DNA from: a candidate division WOR-1 bacterium RIFOXYB2_FULL_42_35
GTDB lineage: Bacteria > Margulisbacteria > WOR-1 > O2-12-FULL-45-9
Length of the DNA: 64,000 nucleotides
NCBI GenBank assembly: GCA_001771545.1
Contig: MEUC01000019.1
Coordinates: forward strand, 1-64,000
Direction of reading: 5' to 3'
The notes beneath the pieces are model-generated. The model was not told where the DNA came from. It searched no databases and saw only the letters and a program-made list of their open reading frames with translations. Positions 19,955 to 57,955 of the stretch are shown here, in pieces. Each line of letters opens with the position of its first letter. The first letter of the stretch is position 1. A program made the translations under genes and the position numbers.

Positions 19955-21346
19955 CTAAGCAGACAGCTGCTGATCAATCGCCTTAGCTGCCACCTTACCG
20001 TCACCCATAGCAGAAATAACCGTAGCAGCGCCGCGAACAATGTCACCACCAGCATAAACGCCAGGGATAGAAGCTAAACCTTGTTCGTTAACGATCACCC
20101 CACCCCATTTTTCAACTTTTAGATCTGGGGTACGCTGTGGCACCAGCGGATTAGGAGAGTTGCCAATTGCGACAACAACTGTATCAACCGAAACCCGAAA
20201 CTCGGAACCCGCAACTGGAACCGGTCGACATCGACCAGAAGAATCAGGTTCTCCCAATTCCATTTGCAAACACTCAGCAAACTCAACCCAACCATCAGCA
20301 TTAGCATGATATTTAACCGGCAAGATTAAGGTTTTAAAGATAATCCCCTCTTCATGAGCCCGATGAACCTCTTCCAACCTGGCCGGCATCTCTTTTTCGG
20401 TTCTGCGATAGATAATATAGACTTCTTCTGCTCCAAGTCGGAGAGAAACCCGAGCTGCATCCATAGCAACGTTCCCTCCGCCAACCACAGCAACACGTTT
20501 GCCGATTTTAATTGGCGTTAAATTTGCCGGAAAATTCCAGGCCTTCATCATATTAATGCGGAAAAGATATTCGTTGGCAGAGTAAACACCATCAAGGTTC
20601 TCTCCTGGTACCTTCATGAATTTTGGCAGTCCTGCACCAGAACCAATAAAAACCGCTTGATAGTCTTTGAGCAACTCTTTAATCGTGTAAACGTTACCAA
20701 TCAACATATCGACTTTTACTTCAACACCAAGGCTCTTGATATATTCAACTTCTAAGTTAACAATGGCCTTAGGTAAACGAAATTCCGGGATCCCGTAGGT
20801 TAAAACCCCGCCAGTCACATGAAGCGATTCAAAAACTGTCACCTGATAACCCTTACGCGCTAAATCACCTGCACAAGTTAAGCCAGCTGGCCCACTTCCT
20901 ATTACTGCAATTTTTTGATCTTTGGATTTGGAGCTTGGAGTTTGTTTTGAGCTTTGATCTTTAATCTTTGATCTTTCGTAGTCCGCAACGAAACGCTCAA
21001 GATTCCCAATCGCCACAGCCTCCCCCTTAATCCCAAGAATACATTGTTTTTCACATTGGTCTTCTTGCGGACAAACCCGCCCACACACAGCCGGCAAAGC
21101 ATTGGTTTCTTTAATCTTTTGGACCGCAGATTCAAAATCGCCTTGAGCCACAAATTTAATAAAACCAGGAATATCAATCTCTACAGGACAACCAGACACG
21201 CAAAGAGGTTTTTTACATTGGATACAGCGCTTAGCTTCGGCAATTGCCTGTTCAGGAGTAAATCCCAAAGGAACTTCTTTAAAGTCTTTAATCCGCTCCT
21301 GGGCAGAGCGATTCTGCATGTGTTGTCTTATCTTTTTTTCAGCCAT
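19955..21346 (-). CDS. NADPH-dependent glutamate-synthase-type flavoprotein; NfnB/NfnL-like subunit
   Basis: 463 residues from ATG 21346; a TTG two codons earlier overlaps the toxin stop. The N-terminal ferredoxin-like domain has two Cys clusters (CIQCKKPLCVSGCP and CGRVCPQEDQCEKQC). Then come an FAD Rossmann motif (IAVIGSGPAGLTCAGDLA) and an NADPH Rossmann motif (VAVVGGGNVAMDAARVSLRLG). It resembles the GltD/SudA/NfnL family. With the FNR-like gene at 22107, both near NfnL/NfnS lengths, it may form the electron-bifurcating NADH-dependent ferredoxin:NADP+ oxidoreductase. Residues about 124-146 (KIKDQSSKQTPSSKSKDQ) are a low-complexity insert between the FeS and FAD domains. Confidence 0.8.
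   Translation of the reverse strand: MAEKKIRQHMQNRSAQERIKDFKEVPLGFTPEQAIAEAKRCIQCKKPLCVSGCPVEIDIPGFIKFVAQGDFESAVQKIKETNALPAVCGRVCPQEDQCEKQCILGIKGEAVAIGNLERFVADYERSKIKDQSSKQTPSSKSKDQKIAVIGSGPAGLTCAGDLARKGYQVTVFESLHVTGGVLTYGIPEFRLPKAIVNLEVEYIKSLGVEVKVDMLIGNVYTIKELLKDYQAVFIGSGAGLPKFMKVPGENLDGVYSANEYLFRINMMKAWNFPANLTPIKIGKRVAVVGGGNVAMDAARVSLRLGAEEVYIIYRRTEKEMPARLEEVHRAHEEGIIFKTLILPVKYHANADGWVEFAECLQMELGEPDSSGRCRPVPVAGSEFRVSVDTVVVAIGNSPNPLVPQRTPDLKVEKWGGVIVNEQGLASIPGVYAGGDIVRGAATVISAMGDGKVAAKAIDQQLSA
20911..20977. repeat. TTTGATCTTT-type mini-repeat inside the NfnB-like gene
   Basis: Repeated units such as gagctttgatctttaat encode the in-frame Lys/Ser/Asp-rich linker KDQSSKQTPSSKSKDQ. The same motif family is found at 44433-44556, 50495-50562, 51201-51232 and 56378-56418. 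Confidence 0.65.
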
Positions 21347-21348
21347 AA

Positions 21349-21624
21349 TCAAACACTTTTCAGGAACTTCACCACATCATCATGATTGCCCACAATAACA
21401 AAAGTGATAACATCATTTTCAAAGCTAAAAACAATTCTCTGCTTTAAACTGGAACGAATTTCCCATAGTTTTTGGGCCAATCTTTTAAAGCCAAGGCCTT
21501 CGGGCCTGTAACCCGCCTCGAAGACGCTTTTTAGGGCTTCTATAGCTTCAACAACTTGTTTTTGCTGAATACCTTCCAGCCTTTTGAAATGCCGCTGAAA
21601 AGAAGACTTGAAATAGTATTTCAA
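21349..21624 (-). CDS. RelE/ParE-family toxin-like protein
   Basis: 91 residues. The C-terminal half (KLWEIRSSLKQRIVFSFENDVITFVIVGNHDDVVKFL) matches the 'LwelR...yRifF....iilh.f.kk' pattern of RelE/ParE plasmid-stabilisation toxins, usually ribosome-dependent mRNA interferases or gyrase poisons. It overlaps the antitoxin gene by 4 bases (ATGA) downstream of it, the classic type II order. Its stop codon abuts the start of the NfnB-like gene, so metabolic and TA genes share a transcript. Target and activity are not tested by sequence. Confidence 0.75.
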   Translation of the reverse strand: MKYYFKSSFQRHFKRLEGIQQKQVVEAIEALKSVFEAGYRPEGLGFKRLAQKLWEIRSSLKQRIVFSFENDVITFVIVGNHDDVVKFLKSV

Positions 21625-36166: not shown

Positions 36167-36583
36167 TTAACGAAGCAGAAAATTAGCATAAAAAATATAA
36201 ATCCCCACAACTATTAGGGCTACTCCGATAATCTTGCGCACACTCATCACAGATTCGTGAGTGGAGAACAAAACCGTGTTAGCTATCTTGGAAAGCCAAG
36301 CTAACCACTTGGGCAAAAACAAAAAAAGCAAACCAAAGATCAAACAAATAAGCCAAGTTGTTGTCAAATAGCTATCGGGGTATTGTAGTGCTACATACAT
36401 TATCCAAGCACCAATAAGCAGTAACAAACAGCCAATCCAAGGCTTAATTGGATCAAGTTTTTCATCTACAGAAATAATTATTTTACCAAAAAACTTGTCT
36501 AGACTGCCAACAACATTAGGACTCAAAACAAGAAAAAGACCAAAAAATAGACTGACCAATCCGGCAATAATTATATAAGACAA
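36167..36583 (-). CDS. Small four-helix membrane protein of unknown function
   Basis: 138 residues with about four hydrophobic helices (residues 3-22, 48-66, 75-92 and 117-135) separated by charged loops. The two halves look alike (GLFLVLSPNVVGSLDKFFGKII versus GLLFLFLPKWLAWLSKIANTVLF), suggesting an internal duplication. It has a good AAGGAGGTGA ribosome site about 14 bases before the start. It lies between pilC and the pilin gene, so a role in pilus assembly or in the local envelope is possible; no family is recognised. Confidence 0.7.
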   Translation of the reverse strand: MSYIIIAGLVSLFFGLFLVLSPNVVGSLDKFFGKIIISVDEKLDPIKPWIGCLLLLIGAWIMYVALQYPDSYLTTTWLICLIFGLLFLFLPKWLAWLSKIANTVLFSTHESVMSVRKIIGVALIVVGIYIFYANFLLR

Positions 36584-43074: not shown

Positions 43075-44559
43075 CTAGAATTTATACAAAAGCCCCACGG
43101 CCGCCATATCAGTGGTATCGCCGGTCGATCTATCCTGATCAATACGATATAGGGCATCAAGGCTAGCACTGGGTGCTACAGCATAAGAAACTCCACCCTG
43201 AGCCGTTAACCGGCCAACAGTAGTATCATAGCGGTAATCGGGATTAAGCCTGATTTGGCCTTTACCAATCAGTTTAATATCTTCGGTGACTTGTTGGGTA
43301 ACATCGCCACCAAAATTGACTGTGCCATTTTGCAACGGTCGATCAAAAACATCCAGTCCGGCAAAATCGAACTCTGCAGCAGCAAAAGTCGCATTGATAT
43401 AATCTTGGCCCACCTTAAAAAACTTAATATTAGCCACGGTACCAGTATCAAAAACATCCTTAAGAGCCAAAGAGCCACCAAACATTAGCGTCGTTAGACC
43501 TGTCCCTGCCATCCCAAACTTTCCAGAAGCCTCGATCTTGTTTCCCAACGGAGCCGATAAAGCAATTGCCCCTCGTATGTCTCTGGTTTTATCACTAAAG
43601 ATACCGGCAGAAACATAGTCCCCTGCTGTTTCCACTTTCAAAGTATTAACTAGGGGAACATTGTTAAATTGATAACCAACAGACCCAGTAAACCTAGTTA
43701 CATCAAATAAATTATTGGCATCTCTGCCCATTACAATGTAACTACCAGCCACATCAGCGCCCCAAAGTTTAGTTTCGGCCATAACCCCCGTATCGGGCCG
43801 ACTATAAACCACCCCGACTAAACTGGGGAAAACCCCACCGTAAGAAGAAGTTTGCCGAACAGCACCAGGCCCATAACTAACTGTTAGGTCAACAGGATTT
43901 TCCAAGCCAAAAATAGACATATCCAAACCAACTACGGAAGTAACATCAATCAGTTGTTTAGCTAAATCAGGAGAGGCTGAATTTTCAAAACCATAATCCA
44001 TGGTATCAAGGTTTACAACAACCTTGGCAGTTGGGCTAAATCTGCGAGTTGTGGTCAGAATCAAACGGTAACCGGCCAAACCTCCACGTACTGCCCCACC
44101 AGTTGCCAGAAGATTGCCTACTGCCATGGAAGATTTGAGTGAGCCAGAAACTTCAAACTTTTCTTTCTCTGCTTGCTCAAGGGCTACAATCTTAGTCTTA
44201 AGGTCAACAACATCGGCCTGCAGATCACCGCCTAAAACATTTTTTAACTTTGAGAGCATGACCGCTATTTCATAACGGTTGACATTTTCAGTGCCGCGAA
44301 AAGTTCCATCAGGAAAGCCATTAATAACCCCAAGCTTGACCATGTCATAAACTTCATTTGCTGCCCACATATCATCATCCATATCTTTAAACTCGACATC
44401 GGCTCCCGACGTTAAGCTCAAAATCCCAAAACTAAAAATCAAAATAAATCCCAAGATCAAAATTCCAAATCCAAAACATTTTGATCTTTGATCCTTATCT
44501 GTTGAACTTATTTTGATCTTTTTCCTTTGATCATTGCTCTTTGATTTATTTTTGTTCAC
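43075..44559 (-). CDS. SLH-domain outer-membrane beta-barrel protein
   Basis: 494 residues from GTG 44559. Order: a charged repeat-derived N-terminus, a signal-type helix (residues about 30-50), one SLH domain (KDMDDDMWAANEVYDMVKLGVINGFPDGTFRG, about 55-115), a short coiled coil (VVDLKTKIVALEQAEKEK), and a long alternating-strand region ending in LLYKF. The C-terminal Phe is typical of outer-membrane barrels. This layout resembles cyanobacterial and other diderm SLH porins, in which SLH binds peptidoglycan or its secondary polymers. Probable porin or envelope tether. It has its own promoter. Confidence 0.8.
   Translation of the reverse strand: MNKNKSKSNDQRKKIKISSTDKDQRSKCFGFGILILGFILIFSFGILSLTSGADVEFKDMDDDMWAANEVYDMVKLGVINGFPDGTFRGTENVNRYEIAVMLSKLKNVLGGDLQADVVDLKTKIVALEQAEKEKFEVSGSLKSSMAVGNLLATGGAVRGGLAGYRLILTTTRRFSPTAKVVVNLDTMDYGFENSASPDLAKQLIDVTSVVGLDMSIFGLENPVDLTVSYGPGAVRQTSSYGGVFPSLVGVVYSRPDTGVMAETKLWGADVAGSYIVMGRDANNLFDVTRFTGSVGYQFNNVPLVNTLKVETAGDYVSAGIFSDKTRDIRGAIALSAPLGNKIEASGKFGMAGTGLTTLMFGGSLALKDVFDTGTVANIKFFKVGQDYINATFAAAEFDFAGLDVFDRPLQNGTVNFGGDVTQQVTEDIKLIGKGQIRLNPDYRYDTTVGRLTAQGGVSYAVAPSASLDALYRIDQDRSTGDTTDMAAVGLLYKF
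44433..44556. repeat. TTTGATCTTT/AAATCCCAA mini-repeats forming the SLH protein's N-terminus
   Basis: Short near-repeats (ttttgatctttgatcc, ttttgatctttttcctttgatc, aaatcccaagatcaaaattcc) make up almost all codons 2-42. They encode the Lys/Ser/Asp-rich n-region and the hydrophobic core FGFGILILGFILIFSFGIL. The same repeat family is found inside other genes of this window. Confidence 0.65.
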
Positions 44560-44598
44560 TACTCAATACTCCCTTGCTGTCTAATTTTCAGTATAGTA

Positions 44599-49330: not shown

Positions 49331-51109
49331 TTATCCTCTAGTCAAACCCTTAATCAAATCCTCCCGCTTCAACTGTTTCAAGGCCTTAGCTACTTGGCGA
49401 AAGTTTTTTTCTAAATGGGGTTGCAATAACGCCTTTTGAAAAGAGCGCTCCTCCCCTTTTGGCACATGGACCGACTTACCGGTAAAAGGATCTATCCCCG
49501 TATAATACATACAGGTGGAGACCGTCATTGGGGTTGGGGTGAAGTTTTGCACTTGCTCTAAGCGAATCTGATGTTTTCTCATAAACAAGGTCAGGTCAAG
49601 GGCATGCCGCATGGTTGAACCAGGATGAGAAGCGATAAAGTACGGAACTAAAAACTGCTCTTTGCCATGTATTTCAGATAATTCCTCAAATTTTTTCTTA
49701 AACTGCAAAAACTTGCCAAGAGCCGGCTTGCCCATCAACAAAAGGACTTCTTCACAAATATGTTCCGGAGCAACGCTTAACTGGCCGCCAACATGACAAT
49801 TAACCAGTTCATCCATATACTCATCATCCATCATGGCCAAGTCGTAACGAATGCCGGAACCGATAAAAAGCCTTTTAACCCCATGAATATTGCGCACCTC
49901 GCGCAAAACTCGTAACGATGGCTTTTGGGAGTTTTTTAGAAATCTACACACCGTAGGATAAATACAACTAGCCCTGGTACAACCCTCTTCTTTAGAACAA
50001 GTAATGCCATACATGTTGGAAGTTGGCCCACCAACATCAAGAATGTTACCCCGAAAATCTTTTTGCGGAATAATTTTTTCTTTGATTTCTTTTTTAATCG
50101 AGTCAATACTACGACTAGTAATATATTTACCTTGGTGCTGAGAAATAGCACAAAAAGAACAACCGCCAAAACAACCACGATGAGAAACAGTAGAAAACCT
50201 GACAAAGTCACAGGCTGGGATTAATTTTCCCTTATACATCGGGTGAGCTGCACGCATAAAGGGTAATTCAAACAAACTTTCGAATTCTTGTTGATTTAAA
50301 TTCTCTGGCGGAAAAACGACTAAATAACGACCCTGACAAGGCTGAATTATTGTTCGTGGATGTTTTAGTCTTCCTTCTAAATAATAAAGTTTAAACGCCT
50401 CCGCATATTTCTTCTTATCGGTCGAAACTTCTTCGAATGAAGGTAGAATTAAGACATCTTTATATTCTGAAATATCTTTGACAATAATTGCCGTATTTGG
50501 GAATTGGAAATTGGGAATTGGAAATTGGGATTTATTTTGATCTTTGTCCTTTGATCTTTGGATTTCCTGGGCTATGCGAAGGATCCCCTTTTCACTCATC
50601 CCGTAGGTTAAATAATCAGCTTTGGCATCAAAAATTAGGCTGCGGCGAACCTTATCTGACCAGAAATCATACTGGGCAAAGCGTCGCAAACTTGCTTCCA
50701 CCCCACCAAGCACCACCGAAACTCCAGGAAAGAGTTGTTTAACCTTATTGGTGTAAACAAGGGAGGCTCGATCCGGCCGCTTACCACCAACATTATCAGG
50801 AGTATACATATCTGTGCGGCGAAGTTTTTTATCCGCAGTATAGTTGGCTACCATGGAATCAAGATTGCCGGAAGAAACACCAAAGAAAAGTTTAGGTTTG
50901 CCTAGCTTTAAGAAATCCTCATCACTCTTCCAATTGGGTTGAGCAATAATTCCAACTGTAAAGCCATGTTTTTCTAAATAGCGGGCAATTAGAACTGGTC
51001 CAAAGCTAGGGTGATCAATATACGCATCGCCAGTAACCATGATAATGTCCAGCTGGTCAATATTTCGCGCTTTTAAGTCATTCTTGTCTATGGGAAGAAA
51101 GTGCGGCAT
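49331..51109 (-). CDS. YgiQ/UPF0313-family radical SAM protein
   Basis: 592 residues. The N-terminal cobalamin-binding-like domain (DIIMVTGDAYIDHPSFGPVLIARYLEKHGF) is followed by a radical SAM domain with C-FGG-C-SF-C in SHRGCFGGCSFCAISQHQG. A C-terminal region with VQNFTPTPMTVSTCMYYTGIDPFTG matches the YgiQ family. Substrate unknown. Residues about 183-205 are a low-complexity insert (SKDKDQNKSQFPIPNFQF) not expected in the family. A TGCTATAAT -10 lies 6 bases before the ATG. Confidence 0.9.
   Translation of the reverse strand: MPHFLPIDKNDLKARNIDQLDIIMVTGDAYIDHPSFGPVLIARYLEKHGFTVGIIAQPNWKSDEDFLKLGKPKLFFGVSSGNLDSMVANYTADKKLRRTDMYTPDNVGGKRPDRASLVYTNKVKQLFPGVSVVLGGVEASLRRFAQYDFWSDKVRRSLIFDAKADYLTYGMSEKGILRIAQEIQRSKDKDQNKSQFPIPNFQFPNTAIIVKDISEYKDVLILPSFEEVSTDKKKYAEAFKLYYLEGRLKHPRTIIQPCQGRYLVVFPPENLNQQEFESLFELPFMRAAHPMYKGKLIPACDFVRFSTVSHRGCFGGCSFCAISQHQGKYITSRSIDSIKKEIKEKIIPQKDFRGNILDVGGPTSNMYGITCSKEEGCTRASCIYPTVCRFLKNSQKPSLRVLREVRNIHGVKRLFIGSGIRYDLAMMDDEYMDELVNCHVGGQLSVAPEHICEEVLLLMGKPALGKFLQFKKKFEELSEIHGKEQFLVPYFIASHPGSTMRHALDLTLFMRKHQIRLEQVQNFTPTPMTVSTCMYYTGIDPFTGKSVHVPKGEERSFQKALLQPHLEKNFRQVAKALKQLKREDLIKGLTRG
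50495..50562. repeat. Composite mini-repeat inside the YgiQ-type gene
   Basis: Tandem ggaattggaaattgg units followed by ttttgatctttgtcctttgatctttgg, joining two mini-repeat families. It stays in frame and encodes residues about 183-205. Confidence 0.7.
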
Positions 51110-51124: not shown

Positions 51125-51200
51125 CGAAAGAAAAGGCTTGCCCTGTACTAACAAAGCAGGCAAAATCACGTTAACCATCTTTGTCTCTTCCTTTTACATT

Positions 51201-51232
51201 CCTTTTGAGCTTTGAATTTTGATCTTTGAACT
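51201..51232. repeat. TTTGATCTTTGA mini-repeat, intergenic
   Basis: gagctttgaattttgatctttgaac, of the same family as the insert at 20911-20977, lies just past the stop of the NrdG-like gene in the 129-base gap to the YgiQ-type gene. Confidence 0.6.
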
Positions 51233-51238
51233 TTATTA

Positions 51239-55518: not shown

Positions 55519-56381
55519 TAATTTTCATTAAGCTACTGCAATTAATCTTCCGACTAATCTTCCTCCTCCCAACTAAGCTCGCCTTAACCATCATGTACGC
55601 TAGCGCCTGGCTGCTCCAGGCTATAGTTAAAATGACCCCATTAAACAAAATGGCCCGGCAAAACATCAAAAAAGTTTTACCTGACAGCGATGCCAAGAAA
55701 ATTGCCAGGAAATTAATTAGCAATTCGGCTTATGCTGTTTTTGAAATCCTCTGTCTCCCTTTTTTAAAGAATAAACACCTGGAATCACTAGTTAAAGTTA
55801 ATGGCCTAGAAAACATCACCAAAGCTTTAGCCAACGGTAAGGGGGTCATCATTTTAACCATGCACACCGGTAATTATGAGCTCTGTGTTTTACCGTTAAC
55901 CAAACTGGGTTATAAGATCAACGGTGTTGTGCGCTCCACCCAAGACCCGATTTTTAAAATTATCGACCAAAGCCGCCAAGCTACTGGCATCAAACTAATC
56001 AATGTTCTAGAAAAAGATATGTACCAAGCCGCTCTTAAGTTATTAGAAGAAAATGAGTTTGTGATTTTATTGGCTGATACAGGCGCATTAGAAAGTCGCC
56101 ACGATACCAGAAAGTTTTTAGGTCACGATGTTCCTGTAGCAACCGGCTGGTTAACCCTCGCCCAAAGGGCTGGTTGTGCCGTGCTGCCTTGTCTAGCCAA
56201 GAAAGACGGACCTAAGAACGAATTAACCATCTGCCCGCCCCTGATTATCAAAAAAGAAAACCGACAGCAGGCAGAAGATCAAATCATGAAAACATTTGAA
56301 GATTTTATCAGAGCCAACCCGGAACAATGGGCCATGTTTTGGAACAGTTATGAAACAGAAAGGATGGTGCAAGGAAGATGA
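55515..56381 (+). CDS. LpxL/HtrB-type lipid acyltransferase
   Basis: 288 residues. One N-terminal membrane helix is followed by the LPLAT domain. The catalytic H-x4-E motif is H117-TGNY-E122, after the GKGVIILTM strand. The family GHDVPVATGWLTLAQRAGCAVLP segment and the NPEQWAMFWN end are present. It adds an acyl chain to a (lipo)glycolipid, as LpxL/LpxM do to lipid A precursors. It overlaps both neighbours by 4 bases. Confidence 0.88.
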   Translation: MIIFIKLLQLIFRLIFLLPTKLALTIMYASAWLLQAIVKMTPLNKMARQNIKKVLPDSDAKKIARKLISNSAYAVFEILCLPFLKNKHLESLVKVNGLENITKALANGKGVIILTMHTGNYELCVLPLTKLGYKINGVVRSTQDPIFKIIDQSRQATGIKLINVLEKDMYQAALKLLEENEFVILLADTGALESRHDTRKFLGHDVPVATGWLTLAQRAGCAVLPCLAKKDGPKNELTICPPLIIKKENRQQAEDQIMKTFEDFIRANPEQWAMFWNSYETERMVQGR

Positions 56382-56418
56382 ATATCAAAGATCAAATATC
56401 AAAGATCAAAAATAGGGA
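56378..56418. repeat. ATCAAAGATCAAA mini-repeat at the start of the ArnT-like gene
   Basis: Near-tandem atatcaaagatcaaa units cover codons 2-14. It is the inverse strand of the TTTGATCTTT family. Confidence 0.6.
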
Positions 56419-57955
56419 GCTAATTGTTTTAATCGTCCTTGCTTTTATACTCTTCTTTTTTAGACTGGGAGATTTTTCCCTCTATGACGCAGTGGAATCA
56501 ACTTATGGTGAATTTATTAAGCAAATGCGTCTAACCGGCAACTGGCTCACCCTGCACTACAACGACCAGATAATATTTGATAAACCCCCTCTATACTACT
56601 GGGTTGCTACATTTCTAAGCTATCTTTTCGGTCTTAACGAATTAACTATCAGGCTCTTTGCTGCTGTCTGCGGGGTATCAACAGTAGTTGTAACCTATTT
56701 ATTTGGTAAAACTTTTTATAACCGACGCACCGGTTTCTTCGCTGGCCTAATAGTAATGACTGCCCTGCAATTCATTGTTCAATCACGCATTGCTGAGCTG
56801 GATATTGTTTTAACCCTTTTCATGACTTCTGCCTTACTGTTCTTCTATCTGGCCAGAAATTCAGAACATAAACAACTCTATTTACTCACTTACGTAGCCA
56901 TGGCTTTGGCAACCCTTACCAAAGGAATCATCGGCGCGGCTGTGCCAGCTTTTACAATTTTTCTCTTTCTAATTATCAAGCGAGAATTTTATCGTTTCAA
57001 AGAAATGAAACTCATGCTGGGAACCTTAATCTTCCTACTCATTGCCCTGCCCTGGTATTTACTCAACTATCTAGTCCATGGTCAGGTTTTTGCGGAATTC
57101 GTCTTAGGCTTTCTCTTTCTTTCCCGCTTTGAAGGCGCAGTCTCAGGGCATGCCGGCCCCTGGTATTACTATTTTATTATGATCCCACTCGGCTTTGCCC
57201 CTTGGTCACAATTTTTGCCTCTGTCACTATTTAGAACTTGGAAAAGTAGCAGGAATCCGGCTGAGCTATTGATGCTTTGCCATATCTTGCCCCTTTTTAT
57301 TGTTTTTTCCATTGCCAAGACAAAACTCCCGGGTTATGTCTTACCACTTTATCCTTTCTTAGCTATCACTATTGCTAAATTATGGGATGATTTCTTAGGA
57401 GCCAAGCAAAAGGAATTACGCTTAGGTATGACCATTGCTCAAATTGGTTTTTCTCTTGTTGTTGGCTTAATCGTTATTGCCTTGATTATTTTGGGACGAA
57501 ACTATCCTGGCTATTACGAACAATTAAGCGTTAATATTTTAACCCTGGAAGCAATTTTAGTCGTTGGTGGTTTAACCTCTTTCATTTTATATTTTAGTAA
57601 AAAATACCTTTGGTCATTTTTTCTTTATGCGGTAATTTCTTTTGCTATTATTGCCTCCCTTGTTTTTCAGACCCTGCCAGTTGTTGAGGGCTATAAAGCA
57701 ACTAAAGATCTCGCTAAAAAAGTAAGCACGGTTTTACAAGCAGAAGATCAGATCGCTGCCTGGGAAGTTGGCAATCGACCTAGTGTCGTCTATTACAACA
57801 AGAAAACTGTTAGATTTTTACTTACCAAAGCTGACTTGTATGAATTTGTCCGCAGCAAAAAAGGTTATTGTTTCGTGACTAAAGAGCAGTTTAATAATTT
57901 GACAACTAAGTTGCCTGTGTTTACTAAGCAAGGTGAGCTGATAGTTTTACATTAA
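56378..57955 (+). CDS. ArnT/GT39-type membrane glycosyltransferase
   Basis: 525 residues, 11-12 helices. The first loop YDAVESTYGEFIKQMRLTGNWLTLHYNDQIIFDKPPLYYWVA is the ArnT/PMT_2 signature with the KPPL motif; the usual DE pair appears as DAVE. It transfers a sugar from polyprenyl-phosphate to lipid A-type glycolipid or another acceptor on the periplasmic side. Its first 14 codons (NIKDQISKIKN) come from a mini-repeat. It is followed by a DPM1-like enzyme that would make such a donor. Confidence 0.88.
   Translation: MNIKDQISKIKNRELIVLIVLAFILFFFRLGDFSLYDAVESTYGEFIKQMRLTGNWLTLHYNDQIIFDKPPLYYWVATFLSYLFGLNELTIRLFAAVCGVSTVVVTYLFGKTFYNRRTGFFAGLIVMTALQFIVQSRIAELDIVLTLFMTSALLFFYLARNSEHKQLYLLTYVAMALATLTKGIIGAAVPAFTIFLFLIIKREFYRFKEMKLMLGTLIFLLIALPWYLLNYLVHGQVFAEFVLGFLFLSRFEGAVSGHAGPWYYYFIMIPLGFAPWSQFLPLSLFRTWKSSRNPAELLMLCHILPLFIVFSIAKTKLPGYVLPLYPFLAITIAKLWDDFLGAKQKELRLGMTIAQIGFSLVVGLIVIALIILGRNYPGYYEQLSVNILTLEAILVVGGLTSFILYFSKKYLWSFFLYAVISFAIIASLVFQTLPVVEGYKATKDLAKKVSTVLQAEDQIAAWEVGNRPSVVYYNKKTVRFLLTKADLYEFVRSKKGYCFVTKEQFNNLTTKLPVFTKQGELIVLH

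Follow-up and report, generated by a model that had tools for sequence, protein, structure and literature searches.

A dispersed palindromic repeat as the probable source of the signal peptide of an SLH-domain protein in a candidate division WOR-1 bacterium

The N-terminus of an SLH-domain outer-membrane protein of the candidate division WOR-1 bacterium RIFOXYB2_FULL_42_35, encoded within positions 1 to 64,000 of contig MEUC01000019.1 (hereafter the window), is spelled almost entirely by one complete copy of a short palindromic repeat that is dispersed through the genome. We consider it likely that this palindrome replaced the original signal peptide of the protein and now serves as its Sec-type one. 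The argument is carried by the anatomy of the element, by its in-frame reading, by the differing signal peptides of nearly all relatives and by the recurrence of the same arrangement both in this genome and in other genera. The original prediction, made from the letters of the window, was that a noncoding repeat had been co-opted as an export signal. Co-option is supported, with at least seven further exported proteins beginning in the same way, and signal peptides appear to have been drawn from the repeat family repeatedly in this bacterium; the family is, however, not purely noncoding, since its arms also code inside housekeeping proteins.

The element at the start of the SLH gene

The SLH gene product has a Pfam SLH match at residues 57-97 (E=1.6e-9), and its GTG start at 44559 lies just outside the repeat. 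The element begins two codons past the GTG; its A-rich arm is translated as NKSKSNDQRKKIKISSTDKDQRSK, a Lys/Arg n-region, and its T-rich arm as CFGFGILILGFILIFSFGILSL, a core of Phe, Gly, Ile and Leu, after which the protein continues with TSGA and the conserved DVEFKD (Table 1). A full-element profile built from ten copies, this one among them, matches the site end to end in nhmmer with 95 bits on the plus and 55 bits on the minus strand, and the arm model R1, for which the copy was likewise a training member, matches arm 1 with E=1.4e-8. The landmark AAATAAATCCCAAG stands in register across both arms, and the half encoding the n-region carries the same repeat as the half encoding the core. 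The first 42 codons had originally been read as scattered mini-repeats within 44433-44559; their derivation from a repeat holds, while the scatter resolves into one palindrome over codons 2-49 which extends below that interval, to 44411.

Table 1. Features discussed in the text, with positions in the window or, for genes elsewhere in the genome, the locus
Feature	Position or locus	Strand	Description and basis
SLH-domain outer-membrane protein gene	43075..44559	-	494 amino acids, GTG start; open reading frame and Pfam
Predicted signal peptide of the SLH protein	44401..44559	-	53 amino acids; rule-based prediction and sequence
Complete palindromic heptad element in the SLH gene	44411..44554	.	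In frame, codons 2-49; full-element profile, alignment A2
Arm 1 of the SLH element	44414..44472	+	T-rich sense on minus strand, core GFGILILGFILIFSFGILSL; arm model R1
Arm 2 of the SLH element	44473..44545	-	A-rich sense on minus strand, Lys/Arg-rich n-region SKSNDQRKKIKISSTDKDQRSK; alignment A2 and translation
Shine-Dalgarno-like AAGGGAG	44569..44575	-	9 nt upstream of the GTG, outside the element; sequence
Single arm in linker of GltD-like protein (gene 19955-21352)	20913..20979	-	A orientation, in frame: ERSKIKDQSSKQTPSSKSKDQ; R1 E=3.4e-13
Single arm in radical SAM (YgiQ-like) protein (49331-51109)	50503..50569	-	A orientation, in frame: QRSKDKDQNKSQFPIPNFQ; R1 E=7.2e-13
Heptad run directly after ATG of PMT-family glycosyltransferase (56378-57955)	56381..56411	+	NIKDQISKIKN; R1 E=0.001
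Partial arm, intergenic	51193..51233	-	R1 E=3.3e-5; not crossed by any coding frame found
Full palindrome at N-terminus	L032		Exported protein without family assignment
Full palindrome at N-terminus	L033		Subtilase (Pfam)
Full palindrome at N-terminus	L051		Second SLH protein (Pfam)
Full palindrome at N-terminus	L107		Lipoprotein, carboxypeptidase-regulatory-like domain (Pfam)
Full palindrome at N-terminus	L105		SBP_bac_5 solute-binding protein (Pfam)
Full palindrome at N-terminus	L041		GH26 and CBM9 (Pfam)
Full palindrome at N-terminus	L043		YceG/MltG (Pfam)

Alignment of the copies gives each arm, of about 59 bp, the structure (AANNNCN)x4-AAACA-(AANNNCN)x4, in which the heptads are degenerate and the second block holds about four of them, and a full element consists of two arms head to head, most being about 93-153 bp long. 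Hairpins are predicted in the ten full copies that were folded. Similarity between the two arms of an element does not exceed that between arms taken from different elements (permutation p 0.88), which rules out a recent inverted duplication, and equally a maintained hairpin, as the origin of the palindrome. The AAACA landmark between the heptad blocks (AAACAAATCCCAA) is kept across genera while the heptads change (alignment A1).

Copy numbers and profile matches rule out chance or low complexity as the source of the repeat. The window contains 11 copies of the word TTTGATCTTT where 0.7 would be expected, a count that none of 100 shuffles reached, and in the whole genome its reverse complement is found 109 times, compared with 9 for a reversed control; AAATCCCAA taken alone is weakly enriched (6 against 1.9), both words being pieces of the one larger element. 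Exact counts of GGTTATT are uninformative, as the pattern read backwards is nearly identical to itself. With the sequence-only model R1 we found 82 arms at E<=0.01 in the 1.79-Mb genome, falling into 63 clusters, about 20 of which are full palindromes and the remainder single arms. A match at 36335 is missed by the arm model and is probably due to chance. Arms were detected by R1 in 24 of the 57 genomes searched, nearly all within the same class, and relatives carry heptads of their own, such as AATCCGA (G005), ACTTCAA (G017) and CATCCAA (G011).

Judged by hydropathy, charge and cleavage motif, the N-terminus of the SLH protein is accepted as a signal peptide of the Sec and signal peptidase I type, as had been anticipated from its Lys-rich n-region and hydrophobic core: the net charge ahead of the core is +7, the core reaches a 12-residue mean of 3.08 on the Kyte-Doolittle scale, and cleavage is predicted after the Ser-Gly-Ala that precedes DVEF. 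These features suggest that the protein would be exported by Sec and cleaved by virtue of the element-derived peptide.

Comparison with 29 further SLH relatives, drawn from 29 other genomes spanning the order and the class (L002-L030), indicates what the element displaced. In 28 of them the signal peptide is short, ordinary and of MKK type, for example MKKFFALFLTLVMAVAVATSA, with no sign of the element, and the remaining one (L012, from G005) has a longer N-terminus containing a different palindrome, GGAACCGCTCCGATGTTCATCGGAGCAGGTTCC; a signal peptide shared among relatives, which would have spoken against a repeat origin, is thus not what we found. The 53-residue signal peptide studied here is about 30 residues longer than most of these and has no ancestral core left, from which we conclude that the element took the place of a signal peptide already present and did not bring about export for the first time.

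Recurrence at exported proteins and in relatives

At least eight full palindromes begin exported proteins in this genome, namely that of the SLH protein and seven more of diverse family (Table 1). Sorting all 63 clusters by coding frame, a check proposed with the original prediction, placed the translated full palindromes behind start codons. The start codon stands clear of the element by 3-19 nt, with the frame kept, in seven of these genes; in the eighth, the MltG gene (L043), the ATG lies within the outer heptads. Two further genes, for HlyD (L045) and FlgH (L120), carry the A arm only, which serves as n-region. All ten pass the signal-peptide rule, as against 16 of 287 genes in a 361-kb sample; extrapolation from this sample, which consists mostly of contigs without listed copies, gives about 80 exported proteins, so that by this estimate about one in eight would use the element. 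A possible ninth case in L046 (1956-2076, in the open reading frame region 824-2076) was excluded from the count because a stop (TAA) lies within the A arm and there is no good start. In that same region the T-rich arm contains the start of an open reading frame in which RSAQA precedes the mature part, and frameshift or decay is possible.

Relatives of the GH26 gene and of the second SLH gene (L051) have unrelated signal peptides, several of them made up of the local repeat. Full or near-full palindromes act as predicted signal peptides in relatives from G011 (L137), G017 (L104, L138), G004 (L192) and G023 (L083, L215), and other heptad types occur in signal peptides of relatives from G002, G003, G006, G010, G012, G014 and G015.

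How a full copy could come to encode a signal peptide is suggested by its composition. An A at the second codon position gives Lys, Asn, Gln or Asp, and a T there gives Phe, Leu, Ile or Val. Any copy, read from the outside inwards, presents first the A-rich arm, with few stops, a second codon base that is mostly A and a peptide rich in Lys, Arg, Gln, Ser and Asp, and then the T-rich arm, which in frames without TGA yields Phe, Leu, Ile, Gly and Trp from codons whose second base is mostly T. A full copy behind a start codon therefore gives a positive n-region followed by a hydrophobic core, with the cleavage site supplied by residues of the gene itself. The order of events may have been insertion first and loss of the old core afterwards. 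Signal peptides are probably one of the few places in coding sequence that tolerate a full copy.

Alternative readings

A different view of the same pattern is that the palindrome is a selected, portable export cassette, whose copies are favoured for encoding signal peptides and whose family spreads partly for that reason. Of the 20 full copies found, eight stand at the beginning of exported genes, and 14 of the 120 frames of these 20 copies are signal-peptide-like; among shuffled frames the figure is 1.1%, among random genomic ones 1.6%. Once copies in use are excluded, however, the excess is modest (4 of 72 frames), most arms are located in housekeeping genes, and tolerance alone can explain the pattern, since the T-rich arm carries stops and hydrophobic residues and copies elsewhere in genes would be purged. 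We regard selection for export as unlikely, although it is the strongest of the alternatives.

Less probable still is that the element-encoded N-terminus is an uncleaved membrane anchor or detrimental ballast and that the SLH protein is poorly exported. In favour of this reading are the long n-region, the long core of 22 residues and the comparable L043 product, which belongs to the membrane-anchored MltG family. The n-region, which at about 27 residues is unusually long, also weighs against our own interpretation, as does the derivation of the signal-peptide calls from a hydropathy and motif rule. On the other side, at least six of the eight genes have a small-X-Ala site behind the core, and a seventh has a lipobox-like GGC (the candidate sites being SGA, AYA/SLA, SLA, VFA, SIA, AWA and the GGC lipobox), and nearly all SLH relatives have cleavable-looking signal peptides, so that an anchored barrel would amount to loss of function.

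That translation starts further downstream, leaving the repeat as a 5' leader only, is very improbable, as the later in-frame starts are all TTG codons within the hydrophobic core and would give a peptide without a positively charged n-region; the GTG alone has a Shine-Dalgarno sequence, and most of the other genes begin with an ATG immediately outside the element and keep the frame. Coincidence, that is, an ordinary hydrophobic signal peptide resembling the repeat through its T-rich codons, can practically be dismissed: T-rich DNA invariably specifies hydrophobic residues, and some excess is seen in signal peptides at periodicities other than seven too, but the match covers both arms with the landmark in register, and the 144-bp profile match contradicts it.

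Replacement of the signal peptide by the palindrome hence remains our preferred explanation for the SLH protein; how far it extends beyond this genome is less certain. Among 73 genes of relatives, 30% have seven-base periodicity (z>2) in the stretch of DNA ahead of the mature part, while for internal windows the share is 4%, and this lag exceeds the other non-triplet lags, but some of the gene families in the set were picked because this genome has copies there. In unbiased gene samples the signal peptides with seven-base periodicity number 3/16, 2/20 and 6/42 against a background of 2-4%, and signal peptides also stand somewhat above background at lags of 4, 5 and 8. The smaller excess in these samples weakens a class-wide claim and makes heptad-built signal peptides a recurrent minority, clear in a part of the genes, rather than the rule. 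We therefore put forward only tentatively, and as somewhat more doubtful than not, the wider proposal that A-rich/T-rich palindromes are a recurring source of ready-made signal peptides across a whole class of uncultured bacteria, with heptad versions particular to each lineage, and that the signal peptides of orthologues and the GltD linker have repeatedly been rewritten by the resident repeat.

Arms inside proteins and comparison with known repeats

By a hand count of the 63 clusters, sorted by reading frame and coding score, about 27 single arms lie in frame within proteins, all in the A orientation and none in the opposite, T-rich one, which brings TGA stops and hydrophobic residues. The host proteins, which, as we judge from their sequences, include MutS, ValS (twice), QueA (twice), ThiL (twice), RadA, GltD and a YgiQ-like protein (some with Pfam matches), read the arm in at least two frames, giving QNKSQ-type and KTNPK-type peptides, with KQTPS in GltD as a third. 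The heptad run of the glycosyltransferase forms the n-region ahead of its first membrane span. An A arm also lengthens the N-terminus of the protein encoded at 2095-3789 of L046 (KIKGKRAKSKTRSKIQDPRSK); as this protein is apparently cytosolic, N-terminal A arms are not confined to exported proteins.

Turnover is illustrated best by the inter-domain linker of GltD, where most of the genomes compared have a repeat or palindrome of some kind. It carries heptad repeats of differing types at the same site in G000, G005, G008, G011, G014, G017, G020 and G023, and GC-rich palindromes in at least nine other genomes; in a small number, G027 among them, no repeat is evident there. By lineage, the types at this site (20913-20979; L158-L181) comprise heptad arrays of several kinds, CCCTCTCC...GGAGAGGG, CTCACCCC...GGGGTGAG and GGAACC hairpins. 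Six protein families have arms at about the same position across genera with differing heptad sequence, presumably RadA (L106/L081/L090/L094), MazG (L039/L085), ThiL (L069/L086), TruB (L053/L089), IleS (L118/L088/L092) and PriA (L058/L093). This suggests either ancient copies kept in step with the current repeat of each genome or repeated insertion at permissive loops.

Outside genes, several full copies start at, or a few bases from, the apparent stop codon of the upstream gene (L036 2666, L059 2001, L053 2183). No target-site duplication of the kind left by miniature inverted-repeat transposable elements (MITEs) is evident among 11 intergenic copies, whose boundaries are fuzzy (flank matches of 5.4 nt against 4.8 nt between copies), and the window contains no Rfam match above threshold.

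Palindromes in frame inside genes are known from Rickettsia, in the form of the Rickettsia palindromic elements (Ogata et al., 2000, 2002, as reviewed in PMC10969869 and PMC2229807). The present family resembles them in being a dispersed palindrome of 100-150 bp, both intergenic and in frame in housekeeping genes (the roughly 27 internal arms), and in that a transposase of its own was not found. It differs in that its arms use at least two frames instead of encoding one conserved peptide in a fixed frame, that arms occur singly, that the units are degenerate heptads, and that full copies within genes are located at signal peptides. Another parallel is a Yersinia repeat, RU-2/YPAL, which contributes to the signal peptide predicted for YPO1552 (Delihas, 2007; PMC2759123): this repeat is MITE-like, and there too the signal peptides of relatives are unrelated to the repeat. 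In that case, however, one gene is highlighted (YPO2495 being merely mentioned) and the repeat makes up part of the peptide, whereas here at least eight genes in one genome are involved, n-region and core come from one copy, and there are parallels in other genera.

Single units and inverted pairs of one unit, dispersed in the genome, recall repetitive extragenic palindromic (REP) sequences and their paired form, REPINs, but no GC-rich REP hairpin head is seen. A REPIN with an active REP-associated tyrosine transposase (RAYT) seems improbable, as the sole Y1_Tnp match in the genome is a 109-residue open frame with no element adjoining. Behind this frame (L121, G000:C23) lie two nearly identical copies of a gene that resembles those for small RNA-binding proteins (MKSIFVGNLPWSAK...). 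The heptameric TAACTGA repeats of Beggiatoaceae (PMC4679880) share the seven-base unit and the many copies; they are described as intergenic direct repeats, whereas degenerate heptads here make up a fixed two-arm palindrome that also codes. In searches of an open-access library we found no report of several signal peptides in a single genome that arose from full palindromes, or of such replacement occurring in parallel in different genera; what is new relative to the known cases is the scale and the built-in combination of n-region and hydrophobic region.

Signal peptides diverge fast, and their origin can rarely be traced. In the bacterium studied here the source DNA is still recognisable and present in many copies in one genome, so that it is possible to trace how signal peptides arise and are replaced, in individual genes and from genus to genus. 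The rule that emerges is simple, namely that an n-region plus core is encoded when a palindrome of one A-rich and one T-rich arm is read from the outside inwards, and it lends itself to testing in reporter systems. More broadly, permissive coding sites such as linkers and signal peptides can be overwritten by a resident repeat family, which bears on annotation as well as on ideas of how new protein segments originate.
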